This document shows positions 38,780 to 54,934 of a stretch of 64,000 nucleotides of DNA, one piece after another. Source of the stretch: Bacteroidota bacterium. Its GTDB lineage: Bacteria; Bacteroidota; Bacteroidia; JAFLBG01. The stretch covers positions 1 to 64,000 of the forward strand of contig JAFLBG010000013.1 in the NCBI GenBank assembly GCA_017303975.1, read 5' to 3'. The position numbers were made by a program, and so were the translations under genes. Under the pieces are notes generated by a model that saw only the letters and a list, made by a program, of their open reading frames with translations, ran no database searches and had not been told where the DNA came from. Every line of letters starts with the position of its first letter. Within the stretch, counting starts at the first letter, position 1.

Positions 38780-41700
38780 ATGTCAATAAAAAAATTAGTG
38801 GAGAATAGCATTTTTAGTATAGTGCCATTTTTATTAATTTCTTTTTGTGCGAAAACGGAAAATATTTTGAGAGGCAATGGGATGAATTTTATTGAAAACA
38901 AAGGGCAAGTTGTTGATATGAACCATAATTTACGACCCGATGTTTTATTTGTGGGTGATGCGAATGGGAACAAAGCATATTTGCGCAAAACAGGCATAAG
39001 TTATGTTTTATTAGAAAATGTAAAAAGAGAAGAGCCTCACAATGATAAAAATTTAGAACAACCAAACGTTCCTCCCAATTTAGAAAAGGAGACAAGAAAA
39101 GGATATAGAATTGATGTAGATTTTATTGGCGGAAACACACATCCTTCGATTATTAAAACGGATGAAGTAGAAGGGTTTAATTCATATTATTATGAACACT
39201 GTCCTCAAGGAATCACGAATGTAAAGGGATATAATAAAGTAACATACCAAAATGTATATAATAATGTTGATGTGCTTTTTTATGGAACGAAAGAATCAGG
39301 ATTGAAGTATGATATTGTTGTTAAGCCAGGTGGAAATACCAATGACATTCAACTTAAATATGTTGGTGCAGACAATGTAAAAATTGAAAACGGAAAAATC
39401 TTGTTAGAAACTTCCATTGGAACTATTACCGAATGGATGCCTAAAGTATATCAAAAAATTAACAACGAAATTATTGATATTCCTGCTAGCTACGCTTTGG
39501 CTGCAGTAGAAGCAAACACCTTCATTTTAACATATAAAATTGGTGAGTACGATAAAAACTCCCCTCTTATCATTGATCCATCAAGCGCTTGGATTACCTA
39601 CCAAGGGGGCGGTGATGAGGAGTACTGTGCAGCCATAACAGTTGACAATCAATCAAACTCCATTGTAACAGGAAGTTCCATTTCTAATGATTTCCCAGTT
39701 TCTGCAATGCCCTTTATTACAACCAATTCGGGGGTGACAGATGTTGTAGTAAGCAAGTTCTCAAATTCAGGGGCTAGAATATGGAGTATTTACTACGGCA
39801 GCAATGATAAAGATTTCGGAATTGACATTACCCATGATAGTCAAGGAAACTGCGCAATACTTGGCCAAACATTTAGTAGAACACTTCCTACAAGTGCAAA
39901 TCCGTTTCAATCTACCACTACAGCAGGTGGAACTTTTTTGAGCTGCTATTTTTTATTAAAGCTTGATCAAAATGGCTACCGTGTGTTTTGTACTTATTAC
40001 TCAGCAAATAATGTAAACTTTGGACTTGGAATGCAAATTTGCAGAGAAGGTAATGTTGTAATAGATAGTGCCAATGATATATACATTAGCGGTATAACAA
40101 AAGACAGTGTTTCTACCAATTCGGGACCACTAGTAGGCAAGAACAATGGATTTTTTGATGTATTTATTGCTAAATTTTCGCCATCCGGAAATTTTACTTG
40201 GGCGCAAATGTATGCTGGCAGCCACAATGATTGGGTTGATGGAATGGCTGTTGATCAATTGGACAATATTATTATTGCCGGTTATACTAAATCTGCAGAC
40301 TATCCAACGGTAAATCCATTTCAAACTGTAGGAACAGGATTTATTACTAAAGTTGATAAAAATGGCTTATTGCTTTGGTCAACTTACATAAATGGATGCT
40401 ATGGCATCGTTTTTACTCAAGGTAGCAGCTTCTCTCCTTCGGATAGATCGCCTGTTGTTATAACATCTACAAACGATATTGTGGTGGTATTTACAGCATT
40501 GAGCGGGTTCCCATCTACTCTAAATTCTGCGCCTGGAGGAAAAGATTTTGGGATTATTAAACTAAGTGCAAGTGGCACACAAATATGGGGAACTTATTAT
40601 GGCACAAGTGGGGAAGAATGGTTTCCTGCCGCTACCATAGATTCTAACGACAATATATACGTATTTGGAGAGTACGAAGATTTTTCTACTTCTATAACAG
40701 ACAATTCGTGTGGATATCAAAATACCTTTGGTGGAATCGAAGATCACTTCATATCAAAATTTGATCAAGCAGGAAATTTACTTTGCAGCACCTATCTAGG
40801 AGGACCTAATGAAGAAGATTGGGACACCTATTCCTATGGTGATATTTATGCCAAAGGGGCTTTTTTATATTTTACTGACAATGGTCCAAGCGGATATCCT
40901 GTTACCAATGGTGCTTTTCAAACAGCATTTGCAGGTGGGAGTATTGATGGTGGTGATTTAATAATTGGTAGAATTTGCTCACTTAATTGTGGAGATGATA
41001 ATTATTCGGATGTTACTATTGACACAACCCTAACCAATACTACATGCGGTGTGCAAGTAGGATTTCTGCCTACTCATTATTGCGATCCGTCTTTAACTTC
41101 ATTTACTTGGCAGTTTCAAGGAGCAACACCTTCAAGTTCTACGTTGTTTAATCCCACGGTAACTTACAATGCAAGTGGAACTTACCTTGTAAAATTAATT
41201 ATAAGCTCTCCTTGCGGAACAGACAGTATTAGCAGCCTCCATAGCTTTGTGGTAGCCAATAGCAATCCTACCATTTCTGGTAACAATCCTATTTGTGCCA
41301 ATACCACTTCTAGTTTAACAATTACAGGTGTAGTAAGTGCAAATTGGTTGCCAGCCGCGAGTATTAATAATCCTAGTGCATTAACGGTTGTTGCAACTCC
41401 TGCAAGCACAACTACCTATACCATAAATGGAGTATCTACTCAAGGGTGCAATTACAATACAGTTTACACCGTTAGTGTACTAACTTTGCCAATTATTTCT
41501 CAACATTCCAATTCATCTGTTACATGCAACGGACTAAGTGATGGTGCCGCTGACATAACTGTTTCCAGTGGTACAACTCCTTATCAATACAGTTGGAGCG
41601 ATGGTAGTACCAATATTGGTATCATCAATAAACCGGCTGCCACCTATACAATTTTAGTAGTAGACTCTGCAGGTTGCACAGCTACTACTACTATTACTAT

Positions 41701-42730
41701 TACAGAGCCTATGCCTCTTACACTAGCAGTAACAGGCAATACAGTTATATGCAGTGGTCAAACAACCAGTATATCAGCCACTGCAAATGGCGGAAATGGG
41801 TCTTACAGCTATACTTGGGTTCCGTTTAATAGCAACCAGCAAAATGTTTCTGTGAGTCTTTCTAGCACTACCGCTTATTCGGTTACAGTGGTTGATTCTA
41901 CGAATTGTTCCGCTACATTTTCTCAAAACTTGGCTTTCCATGCATTACCACAACTACTTTATAGCTTAAGTGATACGGCTGGATGTAGTCCACTTTGCAT
42001 AAATTTTACAAATCAATCGTTGAATGTAAAAAATATTAAATGGCAATATAGCGATGGGGCTGCGGATACTTCCTTAACTGCAAAACACTGCTTTGCAAAT
42101 GCCGGGAAATATGGATTTGACCTCATGATTACCGATAACAATGGTTGCACCAATATAATTCATGAGCAAAATAAACTTACTATATTTCCTTCTCCAATTG
42201 CGGCTTTTACTGCATCTCCTACAAAAGCAACAATTATCAATGCACAAATTACAGTAACTAATGAATCTCAAAATGCTACTACATACCTTTGGAATTGGGC
42301 AGATGGCGAAACAAGCAGCGATTTTAATCCAAATCACTTCTATTCTGATACGGGAAAATATTGTATAAACCTTGTAACAACCAACACCTTTGGATGCAAA
42401 GACACAGCAGAACAATGCATTGAAATAACTACCGATTTTTCTTTCTACGCACCCAATGCGTTTACACCAAATAATGACGGAGTAAATGAAACGTTTAACG
42501 GGTATGGCATAGGAATAAAAGAATACCAGCTATGGATACTCGATCGTTGGGGCGAAATGATTTATACAACAGGCAAAACAACTTCAGCAGAAAATGCTAT
42601 TCCTTGGAACGGATCGGTAGAAAATGGCACTACAAAAGCACAACAAGACGTATACATTTGGAAGGTTCTTTTGAAGGATGCTTTTGATCAATCACATTCC
42701 TTTATTGGTCATGTGAGCTTAATAAGATAA
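38780..42730 (+). CDS. Giant SBBP/PKD/SprB-repeat protein with CHU_C (type B) T9SS domain
   Basis: 1316 residues, exported. After a hydrophobic N-terminus (about 9-25) comes a DUF7948-like domain (about 35-270, opening GMNFIENKGQVVDMNHN and containing GYNKVTYQNVYNNVDVLFYG). A SBBP-repeat propeller (about 285-720) follows, with strands like FISKFDQAGNLLCSTYLGG and YGTSGEEWFPAATIDSNDNI. Next are a PKD domain (about 745-825), an Ig-like stretch, a SprB-type repeat (about 910-985, VTCNGLSDGAADI), another Ig-like region, and two PKD domains (about 1070-1225). The C-terminus FYAPNAFTPNNDGVNETF ... DRWGEMIYTT ... GHVSLIR is the gliding-motility-associated domain. A surface adhesion or sensing role is plausible but unproven. 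Confidence 0.92.
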   Translation: MSIKKLVENSIFSIVPFLLISFCAKTENILRGNGMNFIENKGQVVDMNHNLRPDVLFVGDANGNKAYLRKTGISYVLLENVKREEPHNDKNLEQPNVPPNLEKETRKGYRIDVDFIGGNTHPSIIKTDEVEGFNSYYYEHCPQGITNVKGYNKVTYQNVYNNVDVLFYGTKESGLKYDIVVKPGGNTNDIQLKYVGADNVKIENGKILLETSIGTITEWMPKVYQKINNEIIDIPASYALAAVEANTFILTYKIGEYDKNSPLIIDPSSAWITYQGGGDEEYCAAITVDNQSNSIVTGSSISNDFPVSAMPFITTNSGVTDVVVSKFSNSGARIWSIYYGSNDKDFGIDITHDSQGNCAILGQTFSRTLPTSANPFQSTTTAGGTFLSCYFLLKLDQNGYRVFCTYYSANNVNFGLGMQICREGNVVIDSANDIYISGITKDSVSTNSGPLVGKNNGFFDVFIAKFSPSGNFTWAQMYAGSHNDWVDGMAVDQLDNIIIAGYTKSADYPTVNPFQTVGTGFITKVDKNGLLLWSTYINGCYGIVFTQGSSFSPSDRSPVVITSTNDIVVVFTALSGFPSTLNSAPGGKDFGIIKLSASGTQIWGTYYGTSGEEWFPAATIDSNDNIYVFGEYEDFSTSITDNSCGYQNTFGGIEDHFISKFDQAGNLLCSTYLGGPNEEDWDTYSYGDIYAKGAFLYFTDNGPSGYPVTNGAFQTAFAGGSIDGGDLIIGRICSLNCGDDNYSDVTIDTTLTNTTCGVQVGFLPTHYCDPSLTSFTWQFQGATPSSSTLFNPTVTYNASGTYLVKLIISSPCGTDSISSLHSFVVANSNPTISGNNPICANTTSSLTITGVVSANWLPAASINNPSALTVVATPASTTTYTINGVSTQGCNYNTVYTVSVLTLPIISQHSNSSVTCNGLSDGAADITVSSGTTPYQYSWSDGSTNIGIINKPAATYTILVVDSAGCTATTTITITEPMPLTLAVTGNTVICSGQTTSISATANGGNGSYSYTWVPFNSNQQNVSVSLSSTTAYSVTVVDSTNCSATFSQNLAFHALPQLLYSLSDTAGCSPLCINFTNQSLNVKNIKWQYSDGAADTSLTAKHCFANAGKYGFDLMITDNNGCTNIIHEQNKLTIFPSPIAAFTASPTKATIINAQITVTNESQNATTYLWNWADGETSSDFNPNHFYSDTGKYCINLVTTNTFGCKDTAEQCIEITTDFSFYAPNAFTPNNDGVNETFNGYGIGIKEYQLWILDRWGEMIYTTGKTTSAENAIPWNGSVENGTTKAQQDVYIWKVLLKDAFDQSHSFIGHVSLIR

Positions 42731-42927: not shown

Positions 42928-43159
42928 ATGAAAACTAACAACATGTCAAGCATAGAAAAAAACAATACAAGCCATGAAAGTATTTATCTAGTTCAACACA
43001 AAGAAAAGTTTGCAATATACACTTCCCTCAAAAAAAAATAAAGACTTAGATGTAATAAAAGATTATCATCAAGCAAATTATTCGTTTGCAAACAACCATT
43101 GTCTAAAGCCTATTCTTCATGGTAATTCACTTATTGGTTGGCAAATTAAAACAAAATAA
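42928..43159 (+). pseudogene. Small gene interrupted at a nine-A tract (frameshift or slippage site)
   Basis: From the ATG at 42928 the frame reads MKTNNMSSIEKNNTSHES... and stops after 37 codons at TAA 43039-43041, immediately after AAAAAAAAA (43030-43038). If one A is removed the frame continues as NKDLDVIKDYHQANYSF ... IGWQIKTK to TAA at 43157-43159, giving a coherent 76-residue protein. Either the gene is broken by a single-base insertion, the tract is a sequencing or assembly error, or slippage produces both forms. No known domain is recognised. It precedes the RiPP-like precursor gene by 36 bases. Confidence 0.55.
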
Positions 43160-43195: not shown

Positions 43196-43567
43196 ATGAA
43201 ACCAAGCAAAAAATTATCACTTAAAGAAATTGAAGTAAAAAGCTTCATAACCAATTTAGAAACAAAAGAAAGTACAACTATCAATGGTGCAAAAGGAGAA
43301 ATTGCACTTGCAAGTGCAGTAGTAAGTGCTACAACAGCCGCCCCTACAGGTCAAACAACAGTTGCTGTTGGCATAACTTGTGCAATAAAAACATATTTAG
43401 ACGAAAATGAGACATTCACTATTGGCGATAATGCGTCAAAAAATGTATGTGGCGACTCCAACAATATTTATTGCAATGGAATTCAAACAAAAGATATAGC
43501 AGGGTGCTTGGCATTAAGCATGCTAGGAGGCCAATTAGCATGTGTAAGTGCTAATGTATGTTACTAA
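43196..43567 (+). CDS. Cysteine-rich RiPP-like precursor peptide with lanthipeptide-type leader
   Basis: 123 residues. The N-terminus MKPSKKLSLKEIEVKSFITN followed by LETKESTTINGAKG matches the pattern of Bacteroidota class I lanthipeptide (pinensin-type) leaders: a Leu-rich start, an I-x-V-K-S-F-I/V-T motif and a Gly-containing junction. The remainder (about 35-123) is Ala/Ser/Thr/Gly-rich with six Cys (62, 85, 93, 104, 116, 122) and many Thr/Ser that could be dehydrated. This core is much longer than the roughly 22 residues of pinensin. No LanB, LanC, protease or ABC exporter gene is in the window, so the precursor is an orphan or is modified in trans. It could also be an ordinary secreted peptide. 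A perfect 16-bp hairpin follows. Confidence 0.55.
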   Translation: MKPSKKLSLKEIEVKSFITNLETKESTTINGAKGEIALASAVVSATTAAPTGQTTVAVGITCAIKTYLDENETFTIGDNASKNVCGDSNNIYCNGIQTKDIAGCLALSMLGGQLACVSANVCY

Positions 43568-43572
43568 TTTCA

Positions 43573-43609
43573 TGTTTCAGACAATGTTTATATAACATTG
43601 TCTGAAACA
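43573..43609. terminator. Perfect 16-bp hairpin between convergent genes
   Basis: tgtttcagacaatgtt and aacattgtctgaaaca pair perfectly around a TATAT loop, between the precursor-peptide stop and the convergent lolA stop. There is no strong T-run, so it may act as a two-way terminator or 3'-end stabiliser. Confidence 0.65.
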
Positions 43610-43637: not shown

Positions 43638-44300
43638 CTACTCTCTCAAATCAACTACTTCAACTCCAGGATAAGCCTTTTTATCAAACGTAAAAACGGC
43701 ATCTGCAATTTCTTCATTGGTTTTGAAGTTTTTAATTGTATAGATATAAGTGCTTCCATCCTTCATCAACATCTTAGCAATTAAAATTTGTTTCTTCACT
43801 TTATCTATATACAATTTTGCAGTATGAAATTTCTTTTTATCAGGATTAAGCGGATATAGATTTATTATTTGAGTTGTTTTCCCATTTTTAACTTCTTCCT
43901 TTTCAAACTTAGATTTAAAACCAGTCTCGAATATGGTAAACATGGCAGATGGTGTAAATGCATCCGGAGATTTTTCATCAATAGTATTTATCTGAACTTC
44001 TTTAGCATCTTTTAAATATGTCCAAATGGTTTTACCATCACTAATAATCTCTTGACCTTTTAAATCCAGCTTATACTTAACTCCCTTTAATTGCATAAAG
44101 CCCGATTGGCTTTCCTTTACTTTCTTATCTTTCCCTTCAATCGTTAAATTAAAATCTGCCTTAATGGTAGTATATGTTTTGGTCTTAGCGCTTAGTTCGT
44201 CTAAAATAGCTTTCGCTTTTTTATCTACTGCTTCATTATTTTGAGCAACAATGCTTGTAAACGCACTTATTAAAACAACAATAAAAATTCTATTTATCAT
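43638..44300 (-). CDS. lolA: LolA-like outer-membrane lipoprotein carrier
   Basis: 220 residues with a signal peptide (ending FTSIVAQ). The domain has the LolA pattern: an N-terminal helix (DKKAKAILDELSAKTKTY), TIKADFNLTIEGKDKKVKE, and the strands FMQLKGVKYKLDLKGQEIISDGKTIWTYL, then VQINTID. LolA carries lipoproteins across the periplasm from LolCDE to the outer membrane. Its start overlaps the ftsK stop by four bases (ATGA), so the pair is translationally coupled, as in many Bacteroidota where lolA follows ftsK. Full length. Confidence 0.88.
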   Translation of the reverse strand: MINRIFIVVLISAFTSIVAQNNEAVDKKAKAILDELSAKTKTYTTIKADFNLTIEGKDKKVKESQSGFMQLKGVKYKLDLKGQEIISDGKTIWTYLKDAKEVQINTIDEKSPDAFTPSAMFTIFETGFKSKFEKEEVKNGKTTQIINLYPLNPDKKKFHTAKLYIDKVKKQILIAKMLMKDGSTYIYTIKNFKTNEEIADAVFTFDKKAYPGVEVVDLRE

Positions 44301-46953: not shown

Positions 46954-47001
46954 ATAAAAGACGAATCCCAAAGACTTTACTCTTTGGGATTCGTCTTTTA
47001 T
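46954..47001 (-). terminator. 20-bp hairpin terminator between the lipoprotein gene and ftsK
   Basis: A perfect 20-bp inverted repeat (ataaaagacgaatcccaaag and its complement) encloses an 8-base loop. It lies just after the minus-strand lipoprotein stop (47020) and upstream of the ftsK promoter. The minus-strand 3' side ends in CTTTTAT. Confidence 0.85.
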
Positions 47002-54884: not shown

Positions 54885-54934
54885 AAAACAGAACGGGTTG
54901 TAAGAATTATTTCTTACAACCCGTTCTGTTTTTT
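54885..54934. terminator. Two-way hairpin terminator between the AIM24-like gene and tatA
   Basis: A 21-bp inverted repeat (aaaacagaacgggttgtaaga with its complement) encloses a short loop and is flanked by T-runs on both strands. It lies between convergent stops at 54867 and 54951. Confidence 0.88.

Follow-up and report, generated by a model that had tools for sequence, protein, structure and literature searches.

A pinensin-type leader on a long, cysteine-rich core: one of twelve dispersed and probably trans-modified lanthipeptide precursors in a Bacteroidota genome

The stretch of DNA analysed here (the window) covers 64,000 nucleotides of contig 13 of a Bacteroidota genome of 3.43 Mb (70 contigs, 99.8% complete). 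On its forward strand, at positions 43196-43567, lies a gene for a precursor of 123 amino acids plus stop, of which residues 1-32 (KKLSLKEIEVKSFITNL...TINGA; 43196-43291, + strand) form the leader and residues 33-123 (43292-43564, + strand) a core of 91 amino acids; the leader was delimited by its profile match together with an alignment of twelve leaders. An earlier note on this DNA had called the leader pinensin-type, and a profile search bears this out, with residues 5-31 matching NF038180 (leader_pinensin) at an E-value of 4.2e-8 and 33 bits against a curated cut-off of 24. Cleavage by a C39 peptidase is predicted to occur after Gly31-Ala32. Likewise, the long core of about 90 residues with six cysteines was described correctly, and the entire precursor contains six Cys and 24 Ser/Thr. 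As to the span given in that note, 43196-43609, the start stands, whereas the open reading frame ends at 43567 and position 43609 is the end of a hairpin. Searches of Pfam and PDB with the precursor gave no match, a pattern scan with the full precursor against 84,980 genomes found no close relative of the core, and a single-sequence AlphaFold model (pLDDT 35) was uninformative. The Bacteroidota -7 promoter motif was found upstream of four paralogues only and is absent at the window gene.

The hairpin at 43573-43609 (TGTTTCAGACAATGTT-TATAT-AACATTGTCTGAAACA) is perfect over 16 bp, as had been noted, with a 5-base loop and without a U-tract. Its stem is longer than expected by chance, since the longest stem in five Markov-simulated windows was 12 bp; it lies between convergent genes and is a probable bidirectional terminator. 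Such a structure is not peculiar to the precursor gene, though: the window has two longer perfect hairpins, probably also terminators, at 46954-47001 (stem of 21 bp) and 54885-54932 (stem of 22 bp), and we therefore rejected the idea that the hairpin specially marks the precursor gene. The convergent gene (43638-44300, - strand) encodes 220 amino acids in which inspection by eye alone suggests a LolA-like carrier of outer-membrane lipoproteins, and the upstream neighbour (38780-42730, + strand) encodes a secreted protein of 1316 amino acids with a T9SS type B sorting domain; both are context rather than modification machinery. Between the latter and the precursor gene, a possible open reading frame of 76 residues lies at 42928-43156 in two pieces that occupy different frames and are broken at a run of A. 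It could be a decayed gene or reflect a homopolymer error, and it has no relative in the loci examined. A T9SS sorting-domain gene is an immediate neighbour at seven of the eight precursor loci of the source genome. Counted by flanks, the proportion is 8/16 at precursor loci against 25/127 for background genes (Fisher p 0.012), which is no more than suggestive, as the background regions are not independent of the precursor loci; this neighbourhood was not seen in the metagenome-assembled genome nzgw115 (1/10).

A genome-wide scan, which reaches beyond the single-window view of the earlier note, returned twelve precursors above the cut-off of the leader model, on eight contigs (1, 4, 5, 6, 7, 10, 13 and 24) of a draft assembly that does not give the true distances between contigs. 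The leaders of all twelve follow the pattern K-L-S-L-x-E-I-x-V-x-S-F-[VI]-T-x-L ... T-I-x-G-[GA], beyond which the sequences diverge: core length ranges from 36 to 99 amino acids and Cys content from 0 to 10, with odd Cys counts in some. One paralogue, C6b (locus L010, 8949-9161), combines the leader with a core devoid of Cys, which rules out lanthionine formation; it is possibly truncated. Five of the paralogues (the window gene, C10, C6a, C4a and C24) share the long core, which thus constitutes a conserved family. Between the window gene and its closest paralogue, C10 (73% identity), dN/dS is about 0.09 for the core and 0.41 for the leader, values that are approximate because synonymous sites are near saturation. 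At the sequence level, the core figure indicates that the core is under purifying selection relative to C10, and hence that the window open reading frame is a real gene.

The window is devoid of LanB, LanC and C39 genes, in agreement with the earlier note, and the genomic matches are on other contigs only: LanB on contig 23, LanC on contig 10 and the C39 exporter on contig 8. The split LanB, present in single copy, consists of a glutamylation protein (LanB-N) of 1016 amino acids and an adjacent standalone elimination protein (LanB-C) of 332 amino acids. Of these, the former matches a dehydratase of solved structure, 6ec7; the latter is similar to TbtD and MibB and retains the HMTxNRL and RYxxxGxHxRxR motifs of MibB. 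The ABC exporter with its C39 peptidase is also encoded once, and an HlyD adaptor follows it. The LanC-like protein, of 661 amino acids, is the sole copy in the genome and the only LANC-domain gene, and lacks a LanM dehydratase domain; its gene is about 9 kb from C10. The protein retains Cys296, Cys346 and His347, assigned as ligands after NisC, as well as His215 of the active site. The best NCBIfam match of this LanC is the cyclase part of LanM, in line with the published observation (PMC7268733) that the LanCs which accompany pinensin-family precursors are similar to the cyclase domains of LanM. The genome thus holds both a split LanB and a LanC, as a pinensin-type class I precursor would need, and the clustering of precursor with modification genes, usual for pinensin-type precursors and not chemically essential, is missing at the window gene. 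That separation, together with the want of a close core relative in the scan of 84,980 genomes, could also mean that the gene is without function, a remnant or stray duplicate left by a lanthipeptide cluster now lost, but the low core dN/dS, the five conserved paralogues and the retention of a complete machinery as single copies make this very improbable.

The pattern of conservation within the five long cores bears on what becomes of them. All six Cys are invariant, as are 9 of 16 Ser/Thr, whereas only 8 of the remaining 70 non-Cys residues are (Fisher p 0.0003). Three conserved pairs, Ser81-Cys85, Ser88-Cys93 and Ser118-Cys122, place a Ser 3-4 residues ahead of a Cys, and Cys104 and Cys116 have no fully conserved Ser/Thr partner nearby. 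Over all twelve cores, a Ser/Thr lies 2-5 residues before a Cys in 61 cases against 44 +/- 5 after shuffling (p 0.0006). Ser/Thr and Cys of the window core are therefore suitably placed for (methyl)lanthionine rings. It is conceivable that the leader of the long-core subfamily serves C39 export only, the product being secreted unmodified and stabilised by disulfides, with LanB and LanC acting on the shorter paralogues alone. A core of 91 amino acids whose six invariant Cys make an even number in four of the five paralogues would suit such a product, as would the C39 exporter and the leader paralogue devoid of Cys; disulfides, however, require neither the preferential invariance of Ser/Thr nor the placement of three of them 3-4 residues before a Cys, C6a has seven Cys, and the leader proposed to recruit LanB and LanC is of one kind in all twelve precursors. 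We consider this reading unlikely, and the non-lanthipeptide secreted peptide that the earlier note had offered as an alternative has become less probable. More improbable still is a partial modification, in which rings would form only in the C-terminal half and a second protease would cut the peptide down to a short product, the N-terminal core region then serving as additional leader: the conserved Ser-Cys pairs do group at residues 81-122 and residues 33-60 are without Cys, but residues 40-61 are conserved as well, with Ser40, Thr47, Pro50, Thr51 and Thr55 invariant, and no second protease was identified.

The LanC of the source genome carries a C-terminal extension of about 230 amino acids, for which Pfam gave no match above cut-off. 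A structural model, based on the homologues of nzgw115, KSB1 and MAG-78 and not on the source genome's own protein, has a pLDDT of 69 overall and 84-89 across the last 50 residues. Its Foldseek matches, at best E 0.02 and none below 0.001, are TglI, TbiB1, PqqD, MadB and MibB, mostly proteins with RiPP recognition elements (RREs); TglI carries one (PMC9016710). As in the discrete RRE proteins TglHI, TbiB1 and PqqD, a helical part is combined with a beta-then-three-helix end; unlike in those, the RRE-like part is fused to the LanC cyclase. On the strength of the model, the extension could plausibly be an RRE-like, leader-binding domain on LanC.

The occurrence of the leader in other genomes was examined in a class-level sample of 295 genomes, as searches at family and order level held only the source genome. 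The leader is present in 3 of the 295, and each of the three has a protein with Lant_dehydr_C (the LanB elimination domain), against 30/295 overall (hypergeometric p 0.001). In each of them LanB-C stands alone, as a protein of about 325-340 amino acids; this standalone form is also encoded in some genomes that lack the leader. A LanC is present in two of the three, in both cases of the long type (660-678 amino acids). In nzgw115 (G046), one cluster (L082, 6083-10515) contains a long LanC, a leader precursor and LanB-C, with a luciferase-like monooxygenase, a possible tailoring enzyme, between LanC and the precursor. The remaining precursors of this genome are dispersed; on a different contig, LanB-N and a second long LanC are separated by about 8 kb, and the C39 exporter has a second LanB-C some 6 kb away. 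In the KSB1 metagenome bin OFTM177, the genes for exporter, HlyD, LanB-N, LanB-C and long LanC directly follow one another, with at least four leader precursors 7-8 kb downstream; identities to the source genome are 63% for the exporter, 41% for HlyD, 46% over 338 amino acids for LanB-N, 50% for LanB-C and 38% for LanC. A Cyclobacteriaceae bin has a leader precursor 1.5 kb from a long LanC. In genome G011, a leader-like peptide ending at a Gly-Gly site has a C39 exporter, HlyD and two LanB-C-like proteins in its vicinity (L091, 5258-12174), and neither a LanC match nor a convincing LanB-N was found in that genome; leader and LanC are therefore not strictly coupled, and the system here may be of another type, based on a scaffold peptide.

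These observations favour the view, to which we assign a probability of about 0.7, that the window gene is one of twelve dispersed pinensin-leader precursors modified and exported in trans as a class I lanthipeptide family, here with a core of about 91 residues. An orphan precursor acted on in trans, as the earlier note had suggested, fits both the split LanB, LanC and C39 exporter found once each elsewhere in the genome and the clustering of their orthologues with leader-bearing precursors in other organisms. First, the shared leader would recruit the split LanB, and Ser/Thr of the core would be dehydrated. Second, LanC would close thioether rings, for instance at Ser81-Cys85, Ser88-Cys93 and Ser118-Cys122. 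Finally, the C39 transporter would cut after the Gly-Ala site and export a multi-ring peptide of about 91 residues. A single enzyme set would thus act in trans on many cores, in a prochlorosin-like manner but by the chemistry of class I, not of class II. To our knowledge, a core of 91 residues far exceeds characterised lanthipeptides in length.

The pinensins of Chitinophaga pinensis (class I) share with the source genome the leader family NF038180, the split LanB, a LanC related to LanM cyclase domains, and a Gly-Gly-type leader end with a C39 exporter (PMC7268733). They differ in being encoded in one cluster, as against twelve dispersed precursors, and the window core of 91 amino acids is unrelated in sequence to any searched family. 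Scattered precursors served by one enzyme have a precedent in the prochlorosins of marine cyanobacteria; the prochlorosins and synechococsins (ProcM, SyncM) combine one synthetase set with many scattered precursors of conserved leader and diverse cores (PMC10783134). The same one-to-many organisation is seen in the source genome, with a single enzyme set, dispersed precursors, a conserved leader and variable cores. Those systems use a class II LanM, whereas the source genome, a member of the Bacteroidota with a different leader, has a class I split LanB and a separate LanC. Membership of the prochlorosin (class II) family proper was rejected, as the leader is NF038180 and not Nif11-type, LanB is present and there is no LanM-type synthetase. 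The broader proposal, that one leader-specific but dispersed set of split LanB, LanC with its own recognition domain, and exporter turns a dozen cores, including one of 91 residues, into exported thioether-bridged polypeptides, is more tentative, and we give it somewhat less than an even chance. Neither a dispersed class I system nor a LanC-RRE fusion is described in the open-access papers searched. Cluster-based mining, in which precursors are sought beside enzymes, would label the window gene an orphan or overlook it. If the trans model is true, Bacteroidota own a class I lanthipeptide system of one enzyme set and many substrates, independent of the prochlorosins; the size range of lanthipeptide cores would be extended, and the split LanB and LanC would be candidate tolerant enzymes for peptide engineering.

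Two further features of the modification genes were observed. Long charged or poly-Gln insertions are found in the middle of the LanB-N proteins of two loci (L027, 7321-10371; L096, 5722-8937). In addition, the LanC gene begins 4 bases past a gene for an NtrC-type sigma-54 response regulator (L026, 9213-12366), an arrangement which suggests that the two may be co-transcribed and that LanC expression is regulated.
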